Below, piece after piece: positions 35,447 through 42,177 of a stretch of 45,930 nt of DNA; position 1 is the stretch's first letter; every line of letters starts with the position of its first letter. The position numbers and the translations under genes were made by a program. Origin of the DNA: a virus; the IMG/VR virus record IMGVR_UViG_3300013306_000784, positions 1 through 45,930 of that record; one strand, 5' to 3'. Under the pieces are notes generated by a model. The model saw only the letters and a list, made by a program, of their open reading frames with translations, made no database searches and was not told the origin of the DNA.

Positions 35447-35986
35447 ATGGAATTCAAAGACCGTCTGAAGGCAGCCAGAAAACACGCGAAGCTCAATCAG
35501 GGCGAACTCGCGATCCTTGCTGGCATCACCCAAACATCGATATCAGACCTAGAACGTGGAAAATCAAAGGGAACGTCCTTTGCCGCGCAGATAGCAGCTA
35601 TCTGTAACGTTTCGACCATGTGGCTCGTAACCGGCAAGGGAAAGATGCTCGACGAATCAGTTGCGGTGGATGAGTTCATGTCCACCAGAGACAGGCTCGA
35701 CCGTAACCTACTGGGTCTATCCGACTTAACGCTGGTTGACCATGGCGATGCGCAGGTAGAAAGGCATGCTGCCGATCTCGCAATGTTGGCGAGTCCTCGA
35801 TCACAAGCTGCCCTGAAGAGAATTGTTGAAGCCGCTGGGTCTGGGCGCCTGACCGAAGCGGATGTTGTACTGCTTGAAAAGATCGCCGAGCGTATCGCCG
35901 GCAAACCTGTGACTACTAAGGAAGGGGCGAACGCCCGGATCGCAAGGAAGATCAAGAATGCCCCTCAAGATTCTGACCGAAGATGA
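35447..35986 (+). CDS. cI: CI-like repressor without a cleavage domain
   Basis: A 179-residue repressor. The N-terminal XRE-type helix-turn-helix is GELAILAGITQTSISDLERG (residues ~20-39), preceded by MEFKDRLKAARKHAKLNQ, a standard CI opening. Residues ~80-179 are helical and charged (RSQAALKRIVEAAGSGRLTE, VVLLEKIAERIAGK) and show no S24/LexA peptidase motifs (no A-G cleavage site, no Ser/Lys dyad), so RecA-driven self-cleavage is not expected. The gene starts at the edge of the operators and overlaps the HipA-like kinase by 29 bp. The layout also recalls HipB-HipA pairs. Confidence 0.85.
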   Translation: MEFKDRLKAARKHAKLNQGELAILAGITQTSISDLERGKSKGTSFAAQIAAICNVSTMWLVTGKGKMLDESVAVDEFMSTRDRLDRNLLGLSDLTLVDHGDAQVERHAADLAMLASPRSQAALKRIVEAAGSGRLTEADVVLLEKIAERIAGKPVTTKEGANARIARKIKNAPQDSDRR

Positions 35987-36797
35987 CTACCACGGCTCCG
36001 CTCCTGGGGCAGTAGTTACCGACGGTATCCTCGCTCACACCCACATTGCTTTGCTGGAGACGGTCCGTGACCAGGCTCCAGTTCGTTGCTACGTCAAAAT
36101 GTATCCGGACATGGCGGGCGATCGCGAGCATCGCGGCATAGTCAATGAGATGATCGGACATATCCTTGGGTCAATATTCGGCGTTCAGGTTCCCAAAAAC
36201 GCCGGCCTCATCACTTTGAACGCGGCGCAGTTAACAAATCGCCCTTCGTGGTCAGATGAGGATAGCGACCTGGTAGGCTGGTGGGTGCAGGACGCGGCAG
36301 CCCCATCCCTCAAGGCTCACTACAGCCTTGAAGGAGTGGAACTGACACCGAGGGCTATTGAAAGACTTGCCCAGGCTCGCGCGGAGCTGGCGAAGAGCGA
36401 CCAAGTCAACATGATCATCGCTTTCGATACCATCATCGCCAACGTCGACAGAAATTTAGGAAATCTCCTACGGATTAAGGCGTCCAAGTACCTTATGATC
36501 GACCACGGGCTCTGCCTTTCCAGCGATGATTGGCTGGCGGAAGAGCTCGATCCGGAGAAGAATTTTGTGAACAAGCTGCACGATTTCATAGGCACGGACG
36601 CCATGTTCCTACCTTTCAGGCACGCTACTATCAGCGCGCACGAGAAGCTGGCCGCTAATATAGAACCAGCGATAGGGGCGTTGCAGGAATGGCTGCCGTA
36701 TGCCATTGATCATCGGGACTGCGCAGCCGTAGAACGATTCATCCGGCGCCGAGCAGATACCGGGACCGCAACCAAACGCATGGGGTTGTTCATATGA
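35958..36797 (+). CDS. HipA-like kinase (HipA_2 type)
   Basis: A 279-residue kinase-fold protein. Visible kinase elements: ATP-binding Lys47 in VRCYVKMYP, helix-C Glu64 in IVNEMIG, the catalytic loop NVDRNLGN (Asp164, Asn169) and the metal-binding IDHG (Asp182), which takes the place of DFG. This matches HipA-type Ser/Thr kinases, and the length fits the short HipA_2 form rather than full HipA (440). AAGGAAG lies upstream of the ATG. It is translated with the CI-like repressor, so it is made in the lysogen. A superinfection-exclusion or dormancy role is inferred. Confidence 0.82.
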   Translation: MPLKILTEDDYHGSAPGAVVTDGILAHTHIALLETVRDQAPVRCYVKMYPDMAGDREHRGIVNEMIGHILGSIFGVQVPKNAGLITLNAAQLTNRPSWSDEDSDLVGWWVQDAAAPSLKAHYSLEGVELTPRAIERLAQARAELAKSDQVNMIIAFDTIIANVDRNLGNLLRIKASKYLMIDHGLCLSSDDWLAEELDPEKNFVNKLHDFIGTDAMFLPFRHATISAHEKLAANIEPAIGALQEWLPYAIDHRDCAAVERFIRRRADTGTATKRMGLFI

Positions 36798-37711
36798 GCA
36801 GCAACTCGAGATTAATCCTGAATCTGTCAACTGGAACTGGCAAGACCAGCACAGCTATACGGAACCCCGTGCGCGGAAAATGGCTTAACATTCGATTAAA
36901 GCCAGATATATTTTCCGGAGAACTGTTCAATATCGGCGTTGGCTTTATCGATAATAATGGCACCCTACACAGCCAATTTACCGATGACTTGAGCCGTCTC
37001 CAATGCCTGTTCGATGACAGGATTGATTTACAGGAAATGGCATTCATCGTTGATCTTGCAGCATCCCAATACGATAGAGCCGCATTCGACGAAATAAAAG
37101 ATAAGACAATAAGCCCACAGATAATACTGGGAGAACCATCATACGCTTCTGGAAAGACTATAGGATCTATATTAAATCAGTTTTATGATGAGACAATTTC
37201 CCTAAAACCATTCGGCGAAGACTCCAAAACAAGAAGGCCTCGATTTGCTAGTTCTAGTACAGAATCTGTGCGATCTGAGGTTTTCAATTGGCTAAGACTC
37301 CAGCATCCATTGTTAGCGAAGGAAATAATACCATCCAACTCTCAGTTTGTGATTCAGACCAGTGACAATGGGGTCCAGCAAAGGCATACCGTAGAGCTGC
37401 CGCTGCGGGCACCAGGTAGGGCCGCCGGCACAATAGTTTCTGCGAATTGCAAGACAGCACCAACGGCTGAATTACGAATACTACAAGCAGCGATGAACAT
37501 TCATACTGCGGTGAGGCATTTGGAGGGAGAGGATTGCGGTCTTTTCATTCTGCGCCCTGGCGATAACTCGGCTCTTCCAAGATCAACACTTGATAGATTT
37601 GATGACTTGATCGATGAGAGCGTTTGGAAGTTGCGTGATGCTGGTGTTTACGTTGGAGTTGAAGACTCAATAGAAGGTCTGGGGAAAGAGATCGTAGGCT
37701 GGGCGGCGTAG
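36794..37711 (+). CDS. DUF3037-like partner of the HipA-like kinase
   Basis: A 305-residue protein overlapping the kinase stop by 4 bp (ATGA). The N-terminal part has the pattern PVRGKWLNIRLKPDIFSGEL and FNIGVGFIDNNG...RLQCLFDD, similar to DUF3037, the usual neighbour of HipA_2 kinases ('vrGEfvNvGvvl......rl..lf'). The rest is not recognised. The run STGTGKTSTA near the N-terminus looks like a P-loop but lacks the first Gly. The gene is more AT-rich than the phage core. It may regulate or direct the kinase. Confidence 0.55.
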   Translation: MSSNSRLILNLSTGTGKTSTAIRNPVRGKWLNIRLKPDIFSGELFNIGVGFIDNNGTLHSQFTDDLSRLQCLFDDRIDLQEMAFIVDLAASQYDRAAFDEIKDKTISPQIILGEPSYASGKTIGSILNQFYDETISLKPFGEDSKTRRPRFASSSTESVRSEVFNWLRLQHPLLAKEIIPSNSQFVIQTSDNGVQQRHTVELPLRAPGRAAGTIVSANCKTAPTAELRILQAAMNIHTAVRHLEGEDCGLFILRPGDNSALPRSTLDRFDDLIDESVWKLRDAGVYVGVEDSIEGLGKEIVGWAA

Positions 37712-37735
37712 AGCTTAATATATCGGAAAGGACGC

Positions 37736-38158
37736 ATGAAAATATTCGGGTTGCTGCTGTTACTAATTTTTACCGGCCTGTGCTATATCGTAGGAAGTAA
37801 CGGAAGTGACTCGAATACCATAGGGAAAATAGCCTCTATAGTTTTATTTCCCTGTGCAATTTCTGTGTATTTTTATCCGTCCATATGCGCCGTAAATGAA
37901 CACCCCAAAGTCACGCCCATATTTGCAATCAATCTGCTCTCAGGATGGACATTCATTGGGTGGATGGTTGCCTTCATCTGGGCGCTAAACAAACCGGACG
38001 CCACGCAAAGCTCCACTGAAAGCCCTTCCTCCACCGATCTGCATCATGCCTACGATAACGGCCAAGGTGGGGAGGTAGATATAAAGGTTTGCCCATATTG
38101 CGCAGAAACCATCAAGGCTGCGGCTGTGAAATGCCGATACTGCGGCTCCGAGCTGTAG
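37736..38158 (+). CDS. Superinfection immunity membrane protein with zinc ribbon
   Basis: A 140-residue protein. The N-terminal hydrophobic helix (KIFGLLLLLIFTGLCYIVG) is followed by a second hydrophobic segment (~32-50) and by the Imm_superinfect block TPIFAINLLSGWTFIGWMVA (residues ~59-78), related to T4 Imm. A Ser/Thr linker leads to a C-terminal zinc ribbon, CPYCAETIK...CRYCGSEL (two Cys-x2-Cys pairs). GGAAAGG precedes the ATG. T4 Imm blocks DNA entry of superinfecting phages; the same role is likely here. It is the last gene before the terminator of the cI operon. Confidence 0.85.
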   Translation: MKIFGLLLLLIFTGLCYIVGSNGSDSNTIGKIASIVLFPCAISVYFYPSICAVNEHPKVTPIFAINLLSGWTFIGWMVAFIWALNKPDATQSSTESPSSTDLHHAYDNGQGGEVDIKVCPYCAETIKAAAVKCRYCGSEL

Positions 38159-38190
38159 AACCCGCCAAACCTAGTCGCCCCCCCCCTAGA

Positions 38191-38215
38191 AGCCCGCCAA
38201 GCGCGGGCTTTTTTT
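38191..38215 (+). terminator. Terminator of the cI immunity operon
   Basis: Stem AGCCCGC / GCGGGCT with a 5-nt loop, followed by seven T on the plus strand, 33 bp after the Imm-like stop codon. It separates the immunity operon from PL. Confidence 0.9.
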
Positions 38216-38229
38216 GCCCACCTTAAAAA

Positions 38230-38274
38230 ATATGGGAACTCCCATTGACAACCAAATACGGGAACTCCTATATT
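38230..38274 (+). promoter_or_regulatory. PL promoter with two repressor operators (OL)
   Basis: -35 TTGACA (38245-38250) and -10 TATATT (38269-38274) are 18 bp apart, near consensus. Two operators of the OR type overlap it: ATATGGGAACTCCCATT (38230-38246) over the -35 and ATACGGGAACTCCTATAT (38256-38273) over the spacer and -10. Repressor bound here would silence the left early operon; the centre spacing is 26 bp. Confidence 0.9.
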
Positions 38275-38306
38275 CGTATCCATCGAAACGCCACGGCAGA
38301 TCGAAA

Positions 38307-38319
38307 CGCTCTTTAACAA
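38307..38319 (+). promoter_or_regulatory. boxA antitermination element
   Basis: CGCTCTTTAACAA matches the rRNA/lambda boxA consensus (GCTCTTTAACA) and lies about 25 nt into the PL transcript. Nus factors bind boxA. A short GC hairpin (CCGG-CCAGT-CCGG, 38340-38352) lies downstream in the boxB position. Confidence 0.75.
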
Positions 38320-38370
38320 CCAGCGCCATGAACGACTACCCGGCCAGTCCGGTTAGGTCACTCCCGGCTC

Positions 38371-38397
38371 CATCGGTGGGAGGTCAGTAAACCGATG
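38371..38397 (+). promoter_or_regulatory. Hairpin enclosing a ribosome site and start codon
   Basis: CATCGGT (38371-38377) pairs exactly with ACCGATG (38391-38397). The loop holds GGGAGG and the 3' arm ends in the ATG of the 32-codon frame. The fold could regulate translation of that frame. Confidence 0.5.
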
Positions 38398-38493
38398 AAC
38401 AAAACCGCACTTGCCTCTACCGGCGACCGGCGATCCGACAGGCCCGAAAGCCTGCCAACGCGCAGCCCACTGCGACGGCGGACGAGGTGTTGA
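38395..38493 (+). CDS. Possible Arg-rich leader peptide (N position)
   Basis: A 32-residue frame starting ATG 38395 with GGGAGG 11 nt upstream. It contains ten Arg, ending with PLRRRTRC. It is the first possible gene after PL and boxA, the place of the Arg-rich N antiterminator of lambda, but it is far shorter than N (107 residues). The remaining 38494-38601 shows no gene. Could be a chance frame in GC-rich DNA. Confidence 0.3.
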   Translation: MNKTALASTGDRRSDRPESLPTRSPLRRRTRC

Positions 38494-38601
38494 CCGAACT
38501 GAGTGAATGACCTGGTAAGCGGGTGCGGAGAAAAACAGATTTCACTGGTTGGCCTTGGCGACAGGGCCAGGCGGGAAATCAACCGAACAGGGGTGTGCGA
38601 C

Positions 38602-39099
38602 ATGAAGCTTGCAGAATTGGAAAGACAGCGAATCAGCCTGAACACGCTGATCGGCGAAGAAAACGATCGACACAAGAAGCAACTATCCGGCCTGAACAAA
38701 GACCTAGCGGAAACGAACCGGCTGATCTCCGCGTCCGCCGACGGCATTGACCTTGATGCGTTGAAGCTTGCCGAGTCGGTGCTTGAGGTTCGTGGCTCCT
38801 ACGACAAGGCCGGCGACGACAGGGCTTTCGCACTTCAAAAGGCTGTCGATGATCTGGCGAACGGCGCAACAAACCTGAAAAAGGCATACGTCGGCACCAA
38901 GCAATACGCTCAGTGGCACGGGCAGTTCGTTGAATGCAGCTACGGCATGGGGCCATCCCATGGCAGCGTGATCTTCTCCATCGGCATCCGCCGAAGCGAG
39001 CTCGGCCGGGATCTTTCGGAAAGCGAAATCGAAGCATCCCTGTACTACCTGCGCAATCTACAGCGCATCCAAGCGGCATCCGTACAAACAGCCGCCTGA
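38602..39099 (+). CDS. Unknown early protein, first clear gene of the PL operon
   Basis: A 165-residue protein from ATG 38602 (MKLAELERQRISLNTLIGEE...), with AGGGG upstream; the frame opens earlier at 38503 without a ribosome site. Residues ~1-50 form a charged coiled coil. The middle (LKKAYVGTKQYAQWHGQFVE) and the C-terminus (SESEIEASLYYLRNLQRIQA) are helical. No signal peptide or membrane segment. I recognise no family. Confidence 0.7.
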   Translation: MKLAELERQRISLNTLIGEENDRHKKQLSGLNKDLAETNRLISASADGIDLDALKLAESVLEVRGSYDKAGDDRAFALQKAVDDLANGATNLKKAYVGTKQYAQWHGQFVECSYGMGPSHGSVIFSIGIRRSELGRDLSESEIEASLYYLRNLQRIQAASVQTAA

Positions 39100-39111
39100 A
39101 CAACCAGCGCC

Positions 39112-39270
39112 ACGACAGCCTGTCGTTAACTGCCCGATCCTCTCTATGAGAGCGCATCGGGGTGTGATTTGAGGTTAAGTCTCGGGCAGCGGATGAGCCA
39201 ACCGGTCGCCATTGGGCTACCCCTTCCGCCGAATGCCGGTTGAGTCCCGGCCAGATCACACCCCGATGCG
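39112..39270. ncRNA. Strongly structured intergenic element, candidate RNA
   Basis: Five perfect inverted repeats in 159 bp. ACGACAG-C-CTGTCGT (39112-39126). CTGCCCGA (39130-39137) pairs with TCGGGCAG (39182-39189). CTCTC-TAT-GAGAG (39140-39152). CGCATCGGGGTGTGAT (39153-39168) pairs with ATCACACCCCGATGCG (39255-39270), a 16-bp stem. CAACCGG (39199-39205) pairs with CCGGTTG (39236-39242). The second and fourth interleave, as in a pseudoknot. No coding frame fits. Strand is not known. Confidence 0.6.
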
Positions 39271-39284
39271 AAAGAAGCTGAGGA

Positions 39285-39632
39285 CTACTCCCGTTCCTTT
39301 GCATCTCGGTAATAGCTATCACATACGACTTCAAGTAAATCTTGGGTGGCCTCGGTCCGCATGCGCAGAACAGTATCGTCAAGTTCTGCTTTGTGTTTTG
39401 GCTGCGAGGAGAACTCCCTAATGTCGTTTGCTAATTGAGTCGACATGTGTGGATGTAGCGATATGTATTGCTCTAAAGAAAGCTCCTTTTCTGGATGCTT
39501 CTGCCCGCAGACTTGGTAGAGAGCTGAACCAACGACGACCATCTCATGTTCGCTGGCAGCCTGTGCGGTCGACGCAAAAGTGCAGCCAATAAGCGCGGCG
39601 AACACGCCTATACGCGATCTTTCCAACGGCAT
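39285..39632 (-). CDS. Secreted small protein on the opposite strand
   Basis: A 115-residue protein with a clear signal peptide: MPLERSRIGVFAALIGCTFA followed by STAQA and a probable cleavage before Ser-Glu (residue ~26-27). The mature part is helical, charged and has two Cys (YQVCGQKHPEK and VVCDSYY) that could form a disulfide in the periplasm. GGAG lies eight bases before the ATG at 39632. It runs against the PL operon, so it has its own promoter and may be expressed in the lysogen. No family recognised; a moron acting in the periplasm is likely. Confidence 0.75.
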   Translation of the reverse strand: MPLERSRIGVFAALIGCTFASTAQAASEHEMVVVGSALYQVCGQKHPEKELSLEQYISLHPHMSTQLANDIREFSSQPKHKAELDDTVLRMRTEATQDLLEVVCDSYYRDAKERE

Positions 39633-39820
39633 TTCATACTCCAGCTTTCATGTTTGGCATCAATGCCGACGCAAGCCTATCGGCTTAGTCCAATCATTTC
39701 TTTAACCCCACCCCGCTGCCGACACCATCCGAATGCACTCCCCTCCGCGCCCAACGGCAACCAGCGGAGCGGATGAGTGCATCCGAGTTTTGTTGGATCA
39801 ACCAAACACTGGAGACAGTC

Positions 39821-40222
39821 ATGGAAGTCAAATCGAACGAAGAAGTGCGCGAAGAGTTGTTACTGAAAGCCATGAATCACCTGAAGGCTCAGGCCAAAGA
39901 CGTGATCGACGGAATCATGGGCGACCTCTACTGCGAGTATCTGCCCCATGTGGTTACCGACACCGATTCGAACATTGGTAATCGGGTCACCGGCGTAATC
40001 AAGAACCTGATCGCTGGCAAGTTCGAGAAGCTCGGCGACTCGATGGTCAAGGTCGGAGATAGCTACCAGTGCGAGCACTACATCAGCTTGAACAGCTACG
40101 ACGGACTGGTTAAGCCCCTGTGCGACCTGATGGGCCCCGCGATCGTCGGCGCTCGCGTCAAGCAGCTTGAGAACGAAATCGAATCGCTCAAGCAGCAACT
40201 TGAAAGCGCCTATCGCCGCTGA
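39821..40222 (+). CDS. Unknown early protein with C-terminal coiled coil
   Basis: A 133-residue protein from ATG 39821 (MEVKSNEEVREELLLKAMNH...), with GGAG seven bases upstream; the frame opens at 39773 without a ribosome site. The middle (NLIAGKFEKLGDSMVKVGDS) is alpha/beta, and the C-terminus (VKQLENEIESLKQQLESAY) is a leucine-zipper-like coiled coil. It begins the second half of the left early operon. Family unknown. Confidence 0.7.
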   Translation: MEVKSNEEVREELLLKAMNHLKAQAKDVIDGIMGDLYCEYLPHVVTDTDSNIGNRVTGVIKNLIAGKFEKLGDSMVKVGDSYQCEHYISLNSYDGLVKPLCDLMGPAIVGARVKQLENEIESLKQQLESAYRR

Positions 40223-40253
40223 TTCCGCCTAACCACACTCTGGAGCCGACACC

Positions 40254-40490
40254 ATGTCCACCAGCTATGCAGACAGTGCGCAGGCCCGAGAGTGGGACAG
40301 GCGCTATGACGATTGGGGGCGCCTTAAAGCGCCGAAGGTTGAAGACTTCCATGACTACGAAGCTGCTGAGCAGCAACGCACAAAGCGTCAAGCGCTGATG
40401 GCAGCTCAGGAACTGGTCGACCGCAAGGCTCGGGCTAAGCGAGTCGCGGCAGCAGTGGTCGCTTACGGCGAGTTCTGGGGGTTGAAATGA
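40254..40490 (+). CDS. Small unknown early protein
   Basis: A 78-residue charged helical protein (MSTSYADSAQAREWDRRYDDW...), with GGAG upstream. It overlaps the next gene by 4 bp (ATGA). It is the first of a chain of tightly coupled small genes. Family unknown. Confidence 0.65.
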   Translation: MSTSYADSAQAREWDRRYDDWGRLKAPKVEDFHDYEAAEQQRTKRQALMAAQELVDRKARAKRVAAAVVAYGEFWGLK

Positions 40491-40720
40491 ACGTTCAGCA
40501 GCGAGATCACCAGACGGCGATCACTTGGATCGAGGGCGAGATCAACAACATGATCAAAGACCTCGGACAGCCCAACGCCAGCGCCGCCGCAACATCTGCA
40601 ATCACCCTCGCCTTCCTGCTTCGCGCCATCGATAACGATGAGCACCGGCATTTCCGGGCGCGCATCGACCAGATCTACGCCTCCTACAACGCTTCGATAA
40701 CGCAAGGAGCTGCAGCATGA
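40487..40720 (+). CDS. Small unknown early protein
   Basis: A 77-residue helical protein (MNVQQRDHQTAITWIEGEIN...) with Ala-rich central helices. ATGA overlaps on both sides make it part of the coupled chain. Family unknown. Confidence 0.65.
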   Translation: MNVQQRDHQTAITWIEGEINNMIKDLGQPNASAAATSAITLAFLLRAIDNDEHRHFRARIDQIYASYNASITQGAAA

Positions 40721-40911
40721 CAACGCCACCGGTAAAAACGCTCGTCGATGAGCAGCTCGACGATATCGAGCGCCGTATTGCGATCCTCGGCTTCGGCCTG
40801 CCCTTCAACGAGGTGATCGGCCGCAGACGCGAGGACCTGGTCGGCAGCCTCCCGCAGCGTCTGTCGGTGACCATGAAAGGCGGACGCATCGCTGTGAGGG
40901 CTCGCCAATGA
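40717..40911 (+). CDS. Small unknown early protein
   Basis: A 64-residue protein (MTTPPVKTLVDEQLDDIERR...), acidic at the N-terminus and basic at the C-terminus (SVTMKGGRIAVRARQ). It is coupled by ATGA overlaps to its neighbours. Family unknown. Confidence 0.6.
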   Translation: MTTPPVKTLVDEQLDDIERRIAILGFGLPFNEVIGRRREDLVGSLPQRLSVTMKGGRIAVRARQ

Positions 40912-41033
40912 ACCTCGTCTACTGGGTTCTCGTTGTGATCCTGATTGCCGGGGCAGGCGCTTATGGCATTGTTCAGGATGGTTCGGGCGCTTGCCAAATG
41001 CCGCGCTCCACCACCTACCACGTGTTCAGATGA
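40908..41033 (+). CDS. Very small membrane protein
   Basis: A 41-residue protein, MNLVYWVLVVILIAGAGAYG followed by a short polar tail. The first 22 residues form one membrane segment. Its ATG overlaps the previous stop by 4 bp and its own stop overlaps the next ATG in the same way, which supports translation in spite of the small size. Confidence 0.5.
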   Translation: MNLVYWVLVVILIAGAGAYGIVQDGSGACQMPRSTTYHVFR

Positions 41034-41146
41034 CCAGTCTTCAGAGAGCGCGCCGGCTGCTGATTCGGCGCGGCTCGTTCTCCGCCATCGGCGTTTACAC
41101 CCTCTTGATGCTGCTCAGCGCCCTCGCCGAACGCATCACGCAGTAG
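41030..41146 (+). CDS. Very small membrane-associated protein
   Basis: A 38-residue protein with a basic N-terminus (TSLQRARRLLIRRG) and one hydrophobic segment (FSAIGVYTLLMLLSALA). The ATGA overlap with the preceding gene supports it. It could sit in the inner membrane with the basic end inside. Confidence 0.5.
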   Translation: MTSLQRARRLLIRRGSFSAIGVYTLLMLLSALAERITQ

Positions 41147-41152
41147 GCCCAC

Positions 41153-41299
41153 ATGAATACATCACCCCGCTTGGCCGCCCAGTTCGACTGGATGACGGTC
41201 GGCGCATTCTCGCCCGAGCAGTTCAGCGGCGAGCAGCGCAAAGAGTACGAAGACGAAGCCCGCCGCATTGAACAGCAGTGGGACAACCAACCGAACTGA
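41153..41299 (+). CDS. Very small soluble early protein
   Basis: A 48-residue acidic protein (MNTSPRLAAQFDWMTVGAFS...), ending in a charged helix (EYEDEARRIEQQWDNQPN). It fills the gap before the ATPase gene. It continues the coupled cluster, though its start has no clear ribosome site. Family unknown. Confidence 0.45.
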   Translation: MNTSPRLAAQFDWMTVGAFSPEQFSGEQRKEYEDEARRIEQQWDNQPN

Positions 41300-41310
41300 G
41301 GTAACTCGCG

Positions 41311-42177
41311 ATGTTCAAGAAAGCCGAACGCAAGCAGGCCAAGCTACGGCTGGCACTTGCCGGGCCATCTGGATCAGGCAAAACCTACTCCGCTCTTCTG
41401 CTCGCACAGGGAATTGGCGGGCGAATCGCGGTGATCGACACCGAGCATGGAAGCGCCTCGCTGTACGCGGACATCGCGGACTTCGACACGGTCGAACTGC
41501 ATGCTCCCTACTCGCCCGAGCGCTACGTCGAAGCCATCATCGCCGCAGAGCAAGCCGGTTACAACGTCCTGATCATCGACAGCTACTCCCATGAGTGGAC
41601 CGGCTCCGGCGGATGCCTGGAGGCGAACGAGAAGCTTGCCCACCAGAAATTCAAAGGCAACACCTGGGCGGCGTGGAACGAGACGACGCCGCGCCACCGG
41701 CGGCTGACCGACAAGATCCTGACCAGTTCGCTGCACATCATCTGCACCATGCGGAGCAAGACGGAAACGGTCCAGGGTGAAGGGAAAAAGATCCTCAAGC
41801 TGGGCATGAAGTCCGAGCAGCGCGACGGCACCGATTACGAGTTCACCGTGGTTCTGGACCTGACACACGACGGTCATACCGCCATGGCAAGCAAGGATCG
41901 GACGAAGCTTTTCGAAGAACCTGAGCTGATCACTGCTGAGACCGGCCGGCGGTTGCTGGCCTGGCTGAACTCTGGTGTCAGCCCTGAAGAGCGCGCCAAG
42001 GAGCTGCTTGTGGATGCCCTGGCTGATATCGCCTCAGCCAAGGACATGGCCTCTTTGCAATCGGCATTCAACGCAGCCAAGGCGATTGCCGTCGGCTTCG
42101 ACGACCTCGTTCAGCGGGTCGTGACGGCCAAAGACAAGCGCAAAAACGAACTCTCCCCACAAAGGCAATCAGCATGA
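41311..42177 (+). CDS. RecA-like ATPase (Sak4-type) recombination protein
   Basis: A 288-residue AAA/RecA-core ATPase. Walker A is AGPSGSGKTYS (residues ~17-27), Walker B is NVLIIDSYSHEW (~84-95), and a polar stretch (LHIICTMRSKTETV) carries the sensor region. The C-terminal ~60 residues are a separate helical domain (ELLVDALADIASAKDMASLQ). Phage proteins of this size and fold are single-strand-annealing (Sak4-like) recombinases that work with an SSB. The next gene, an exonuclease, overlaps by 4 bp, so the two probably form the phage recombination pair. Confidence 0.82.
   Translation: MFKKAERKQAKLRLALAGPSGSGKTYSALLLAQGIGGRIAVIDTEHGSASLYADIADFDTVELHAPYSPERYVEAIIAAEQAGYNVLIIDSYSHEWTGSGGCLEANEKLAHQKFKGNTWAAWNETTPRHRRLTDKILTSSLHIICTMRSKTETVQGEGKKILKLGMKSEQRDGTDYEFTVVLDLTHDGHTAMASKDRTKLFEEPELITAETGRRLLAWLNSGVSPEERAKELLVDALADIASAKDMASLQSAFNAAKAIAVGFDDLVQRVVTAKDKRKNELSPQRQSA

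Follow-up and report, generated by a model that had tools for sequence, protein, structure and literature searches.

A conserved structured element with an exchangeable central domain in the putative PL operon of Pseudomonas phages

Genomic context of the element

The window, that is, the whole 45,930-nucleotide stretch of viral DNA that was analysed, carries a region in which a promoter, a boxA, the open frame 38602-39099, the structured element described here, an opposite-strand frame, a hairpin (39733-39782) and further frames succeed one another (Table 1). The promoter scan retrieved two promoter-like sites, compared with 1.6 ± 1.4 in shuffled sequences, and the name PL is a computational assignment derived from the promoter match and the gene order. 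Upstream of this region, positions 35958-38158 hold two adjacent frames, the first weakly resembling HipA-like kinases (below the Pfam cut-off), followed by the frame of a superinfection-immunity protein (37736-38158); a putative repressor-like frame lies upstream.

Table 1. Features of the putative PL region and of the element in the window
Feature	Position	Strand	Remarks
PL-like promoter TTGACA-18-TATATT	38245-38274	+	11/12 consensus matches
Exact boxA, GCTCTTTAACA	38308-38318	+	in PL leader
13-mer, AACAACCAGCGCC	38315-38327	+	overlaps boxA; the same 13-mer opens the element
Upstream open frame	38602-39099	+	stop TGA (39097-39099) abuts the element; no Pfam match
Conserved 5′ platform	39097-39160	+	R1 match, 82.8 bits
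Hairpin A	39112-39126	+	6 bp, GCC loop; one pair is UA in 38/67 and AU in 27/67 rows
Conserved linker, TAACTGCCCGA	39127-39137	+	CCGA (39134-39137) is able to pair with the 5′-arm TCGG (39157-39160)
Interleaved stem	39130-39137 with 39182-39189		8 bp
Hairpin B	39140-39152	+	sequence and size vary among relatives
Short stem	39140-39144 with 39148-39152		read from the window sequence
Long arms	39153-39171/39252-39270		19 nt, 95% complementary
Perfect stem within long arms	39153-39168/39255-39270		16 bp, closes 86 nt
Stem C, 5′ arm	39154-39171	+	little variation in the outer 7 nt, covariation in the inner 11 nt
Exchangeable cargo	39172-39251	+	hairpins 39172-39182 and 39189-39229; T-arm-like hairpin 39235-39251 abuts stem C
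Inner-cargo stem	39199-39205 with 39236-39242		
Stem C, 3′ arm	39252-39269	+	
Alternative 3′ helix	39265-39305	+	GATGCGAA (39265-39272) with TTTGCATC (39298-39305); competes with the outermost pairing of stem C
Second conserved RNA hairpin (motif 2)	39733-39782	+	loop GCCCAMCGGCAACCA; before the next operon frame

The element lies 0.8 kb downstream of the PL boxA. A model, R1, that was built from 68 aligned 5′ parts of elements finds a weak second match in the PL leader (38313-38376, 17.4 bits, E 0.0022) and, since the 13-mer is also common to both, the leader and the element may be related. The element's 13-mer, or a copy with one mismatch, directly follows TCTTTA in 19 of 162 loci, the window included, and an exact boxA occurs 0.4-1.9 kb upstream in 41 of the 124 loci having at least 2.5 kb of upstream sequence. 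Over all loci, which are partly redundant, 137 exact copies of boxA were counted, compared with about 2 expected by our own arithmetic. Inside the element, no boxA core was found on the + strand with up to two mismatches, and the window has a stop codon at that place. In the PL leader itself (38308-38530), the RNA after boxA comes in several unrelated types among relatives; that of the window folds with a long helix, CCGCACUUGCC/GGUAAGCGGGUGCGG, and the leader as a whole is not more stable than shuffled sequences (z -0.98).

The surroundings were also compared over the 162 loci. Taking the 3′ end of stem C as reference, terminator-like hairpins on the element's strand number 0.03 per locus over the preceding 750 nt and 0.34 per locus over the following kilobase, and beyond that 0.00-0.02 per 250 nt; 1-3 kb upstream, probably before PL, there are 0.06-0.24 per 250 nt. 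In 60 of these loci, a hairpin resembling motif 2 is found near the element, at a distance of 146-1181 nt on the downstream side; its outer stem is not the same in the different types. Little is known about early transcription in lambdoid Pseudomonas phages, to which the boxA leader and this further conserved hairpin are additions. The neighbouring genes vary: when 56 upstream and 54 downstream frames (drawn from up to 120 each and including those of the window) were compared with PHROGs, the commonest families had just 12 members upstream and 8 downstream, so that the element is unlikely to be the leader of one particular gene.

Structure and novelty of the element

A sequence-only reading had drawn attention to dense inverted repeats at 39112-39270, and these are genuine, as all of its stems were recovered in the same places. 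Short frames do cross the element, and the alternative 3′ helix coincides in part with the end of the frame on the opposite strand (39285-39632). Compared with dinucleotide shuffles, the element is predicted to fold more stably on both strands (z -3.07 on the + strand and -3.72 on the - strand), and a z of -3.41 was obtained for 39097-39310 (+). When 160-nt windows were moved across 37700-41539 with 40 shuffles per step, the minimum on the + strand corresponded to the element (z -2.27), the minimum on either strand being -2.80, at 40100 on the - strand. The - strand scoring lower, folding energy is unusable as evidence for the strand; moreover, function cannot be proved from energy alone, and the case rests on homologues.

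Between 38900 and 39500 there is no Rfam 15 match at E ≤ 10, and neither ARAGORN nor Rfam recognises a tRNA or tmRNA gene in the window's element. The whole window has one Rfam match at gathering score, the Proteo-phage-1 RNA (RF03044; 28430-28508, - strand, 76.5 bits). Below-threshold matches among relatives (Trp_leader, mir-3660, asX2, sX6 and others) were set aside as chance. A literature search, mostly of papers outside subscription, yielded nothing recognised as this element. The earlier proposal of a candidate new structured RNA is supported by the lack of an Rfam match to the window's element and by the massive compensatory change in homologues described below.

Homologues and host range

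BLAST searches with 201 bases retrieved 17 phage records, 16 of them bearing Pseudomonas names, and 4 Pseudomonas plasmid records, most matches being limited to the first 40-50 bases or to the region of the 5′ arm. An exact 23-base pattern was found in at least 120 stretches of IMG/VR, as was each of three further patterns, of which the 14-base core one must contain chance matches. In GTDB species genomes, the 23-base pattern occurs in 26 stretches, all titled Pseudomonas. R1 matches 75 of 298 genomes in the genus of a genome titled Pseudomonas extremorientalis and, across the class of this genome, 1 of 369, namely the query genome itself. Within one Pseudomonas genus, roughly one sampled genome in four thus has an element that is absent from Rfam.

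There is one full-length R1 match in the window, with no second one, and one in each of five of six complete phage records, the sixth having only a partial match; additional matches in these six records are weak or partial. Some contigs carry a second stem-C unit about 240-650 nt downstream of the first (L002, L015, L033, L039, L114, L118 and L154) and, under laxer rules, two units were counted in 25 loci and three in one.

Stem C is maintained by pairing

Stem C is a helix of 18 bp whose sequence changes while its pairing is kept. The sequence-only reading had proposed that compensating base changes be looked for, and the covariation expected of a structured RNA family is present in the homologues. 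In 320 distinct elements, which were picked without regard to inner pairing, from hairpin A, the linker and the first part of the 5′ arm, an inner score of at least 10 out of 11 (with G-U counted as half) was reached in 254 of 320 cases with the element's own partner, compared with 4 of 960 when partners were swapped. Similarly, a partner scoring at least 9.5 exists for 83 of the 102 distinct inner arms. Among 79 distinct stems found by complementarity, at least four canonical pair types are seen at 10 of the 11 inner positions, and the outer seven pairs hardly vary.

The strand on which this pairing acts was approached by counting G-U against A-C in 156 distinct stems selected with Watson-Crick scoring only. 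The counts are 54 versus 26 for pairs 9-18 (the inner stem), 36 versus 34 for pairs 1-7 and 1 versus 38 for pair 8, which makes 91 versus 98 over all 18 pairs. Pair 8 (39161/39262, G-C in the window) is a conserved A-C mismatch in many relatives, and the whole-stem counts are even because of it. A second count, in which stems were picked with G-U as pairs and which consequently favours G-U, gave 101 versus 53 outside pair 8 and 103 versus 95 with it. It is thus the inner stem alone that speaks for an RNA from the + strand, and the strand evidence is modest.

A conserved platform precedes the helix

The element opens with the conserved ACAACCAGCGCC, usually directly after an upstream stop codon; in 108 of 162 loci, 27-29 nt separate the end of this codon from the linker. 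Hairpin A, linker, hairpin B, stem C, cargo, stem C′ and the 3′ flank follow in this order. Among 289 distinct platforms, selected by allowing up to two mismatches to the linker, 251 have the exact linker AACTGCCCGA. Hairpin B, for its part, occurs in 128 distinct sequences. The pairing of the linker CCGA with UCGG is available in 67 of 67 rows, yet these bases are nearly invariant, so that the pairing is permitted by the sequences without being proven by them. Of five measures of the 5′ structure, three are higher than in shuffles (the covariation score, the number of paired cells and that of cells with changes on both sides), with no excess in pairs changed on both sides (4 vs 4.0) or in pair types (11 vs 12.7). 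Of 122 elements, 3 yielded no 5′ arm and 10 more scored below 20. Among 28 distinct units devoid of hairpin A or linker, 11 keep CCCGA (1.5 expected), and many of those not keeping it were read only from the opposite side.

Further variation is found around this core. In L104, L042 and L030, an extra domain is inserted after AACTGCCC, between the linker and hairpin B, and the loop GGGTGG of its hairpin is complementary to a downstream CCACCC, in a pseudoknot-like arrangement. On the 3′ side, the arm GATGC has a downstream GCATC partner in 161 of 291 relatives, compared with 27 in mononucleotide shuffles, and stem C is directly followed, in some of the phages, by an ATG with a likely ribosome-binding site.

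The cargo is diverse and exchanged as a unit

From 445 stem-C units, 69 lacking any platform feature were excluded; the remaining 376 comprise 352 distinct ones, and the 329 of these with linker or hairpin A were clustered. They fall into 88 cargo sequence clusters, a few of which are probably chance matches, with lengths of 29-179 nt (median 84). A recognisable tRNA-like feature is present in a minority of cargos only. For instance, T-arms were detected in 7 of the 88 cluster representatives, compared with a mean of 0.11 and a maximum of 1 in 200 shuffled sets. One cargo (L051) matches the Rfam tRNA family at 37.2 bits (gathering score 29) under permissive filters, a match missing from a scan with stricter filters, and ARAGORN found one untyped tRNA and no tmRNA in 122 elements.

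Cargos of 15 clusters (31 units) share a frame of two hairpins with complementary loops, the first hairpin lying beside the 5′ arm and the second at the 3′ arm. In the 22 units that were parsed, the loops covary in two single sequences (ACTGAT/ATCAGT and GCCGA/TCGGC), and their pairing is weakened in five and broken in one. A general test for loop-loop pairing of at least 4 bp was positive in 16 of 70 clusters (mean 7.0 and maximum 15 in 500 shuffles), an excess that derives largely from one scaffold type. The window's own cluster has 24 units, 23 of which were aligned to obtain the cargo structure of Table 1 (the 39172-39182 hairpin was identified by eye and is not drawn by RNAalifold); a 5-bp hairpin with a 7-nt loop abuts stem C. 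This cluster presents little covariation because its members are close, and one compensatory pair was found inside the cargo of a second cluster and five in a third. The interleaved 8-bp stem between linker and cargo, which had been likened to a pseudoknot, did not hold as a general feature: its mean z over 41 cargo clusters is 0.28 ± 0.15, with p ≤ 0.05 in three of them, including that of the window, and a general linker-cargo pseudoknot was rejected.

Cargo can be swapped wholesale between similar phages while the frame is kept. Counting duplicates, excluding pairs from the same locus and using flanks of 600 nt, the cargo cluster differs in 8 of 25 pairs in which both flanks are at least 90% identical over at least 450 nt, and in 14 of 32 pairs at 85% over 350 nt or more; of the 19 pairs that reach 95% over 500 nt or more, only 2 differ. 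In one such comparison (L012 with L411), the alignment breaks at the arms of stem C, stopping at position 2800 and restarting at 2878 of L012, whose unit spans 2779-2895. Furthermore, among 48 cargo clusters with at least two members, and counting the catch-all "other" as a type, 29 are associated with at least two types of hairpin B and 33 with more than one kind of 3′ flank; the window's cluster has a single hairpin B type in 24 of 24 units. A central domain that is swapped as a cassette within a maintained frame points to an arms race or a specificity system at the RNA level.

Possible functions of the element

The analysis shows the covarying helix, where it lies, and that cargo is exchanged between flanks that are nearly identical. 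Our preferred explanation, to which we give a probability of about 0.4, is that an RNA from PL displays an exchangeable, sometimes tRNA-like domain to a host factor. The element would be transcribed from PL and act as a + strand RNA, in which the platform (hairpin A, linker AACUGCCCGA and hairpin B) would lead to a stem C holding a compact, swapped domain. During folding, CCGA of the linker would pair first with UCGG of the 5′ arm, and a second copy, CCGAU, in the 3′ arm would then displace it and free the linker. The displayed domain may bind a host RNA-binding factor as a decoy or a tether, and such binding would explain why the turnover of cargo resembles that of a specificity determinant. 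The likeness of some cargos to tRNA suggests tRNA-handling enzymes or tRNA-directed defence proteins as candidate partners. The display of a specificity domain would fit a platform that stays constant, a helix maintained through pairing and a cassette-like cargo; nevertheless, the conservation of the platform and of the outer stem is not accounted for by display alone, and the position of the element and its kinship with the boxA leader suit a role in cis equally.

That role in cis, which we regard as a serious candidate without thinking it probable, would consist of a platform that folds on the nascent PL transcript and carries RNA polymerase through later terminators, in the manner of nut or of the put sites of HK022, whether or not Nus factors are recruited at the PL boxA, the cargo either setting specificity or being tolerated. 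It would explain the platform and the position, and terminator-like hairpins are indeed rare just before the element and commoner just after it. It also agrees with the exact boxA upstream in 41 of 124 loci, with the 13-mer after TCTTTA in 19 of 162 loci and the weak R1 match of the PL leader, and with the restriction to one host genus. Additionally, PMC7326022 reports on a lambdoid phage of P. aeruginosa that has no N homologue and has several terminators some kilobases downstream of PR or PL. By contrast, a terminator within 4 kb downstream is detectable in just 57 of the 162 loci (median distance 342 nt), the PL boxA alone could suffice, further R1 matches are lacking in the window or weak or partial in the six phage records, and tRNA-like, exchanged cargos would not be predicted. 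The display of a domain and an action on transcription in cis are, in any case, compatible and not exclusive, and regulation of the operon by the element is possible.

Two other explanations appear less attractive. Pre-rRNA stems are long helices that are cut by RNase III to release or protect pieces, and stem C could be cut likewise, or could block exonucleases, so that pieces of the PL transcript are released or protected and the cargo is a passive fold. We consider this improbable: while an inner stem constrained in pairing rather than in sequence and a start at the upstream stop codon (108 of 162 loci) agree with it, it leaves unexplained why cargo is exchanged and why the linker and the outer stem hardly vary. 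The arms might instead be recombination or cruciform sites acting as DNA in the exchange of cassettes, with no function in RNA. Cargo swaps do break at the arms, and the even counts of G-U and A-C over the whole stem weaken the claim for a strand and make such a reading likelier. It is, even so, somewhat less probable still in our opinion, given the excess of G-U in the inner stem, the loops that covary in two sequences, the compensatory pairs inside cargos (one and five), the tRNA-like cargos and the fact that 108 of 162 loci have the element in the same orientation after the upstream stop codon. An action as cruciform or single-stranded DNA, one of the options of the sequence-only reading, is conceivable.

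If the display of a domain to a host factor is extended to the whole family, Pseudomonas phages might share a repertoire of small folded RNAs, some of them tRNA-like, with one constant scaffold and traded cassettes, each of which would disable or exploit its own host target, an RNA-binding or a defence protein. This wider proposal is, in our opinion, less likely than not; if true, it would represent an RNA counterpart of exchangeable anti-defence genes.

Comparison with known systems

In Y RNAs, the paired ends form a long stem that displays a variable module able to mimic tRNA, and the element resembles the bacterial Y RNAs (YrlA, RF02553) in presenting a variable, sometimes tRNA-like module on a long stem. 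Unlike YrlA, it sits in a phage operon and its cargo is hypervariable. There is no RF02553 match in the window and none at gathering score in 17 relatives; one relative, L051, reaches 25.7 bits with a cut-off of 69. PMC8058203 treats Rsr, Y RNA and PNPase; a gene for a TROVE protein (Ro60/Rsr) was found in none of seven phage records (the window and six others), and partial matches of about 60 residues were seen in 6 of 99 Pseudomonas genomes. Membership among the Y RNAs was rejected on these two grounds, the sub-threshold RF02553 scores and the absence of a TROVE partner in the phage records.

Some cargos also resemble domains of tmRNA and tRNA in having a T-loop and, in a few cases, a D-like arm on an acceptor-like helix, which in the element, unlike in those molecules, is extended by the outer stem. 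As in the leaders of lambda nut and rrn boxA, an exact boxA is present in the PL leader of the window, and the element shares the adjoining 13-mer; unlike nut, the element itself has no boxA core. Finally, putL and putR of HK022 belong to the early transcripts of a lambdoid phage, form at least two stems and promote read-through of terminators, according to PMC9378689. They are about 70 nt long, with copies after both PL and PR, whereas the element has one full copy about 0.8 kb after PL and an exchangeable cargo, and is set apart from put by this description; put-like copies after both promoters were not found when copies were counted per record, without mapping PR. As each of these systems fails in a defining feature that was tested, the element is filed with neither the Y RNAs, which are the nearest to it in design, nor put and nut, which are the nearest in place.
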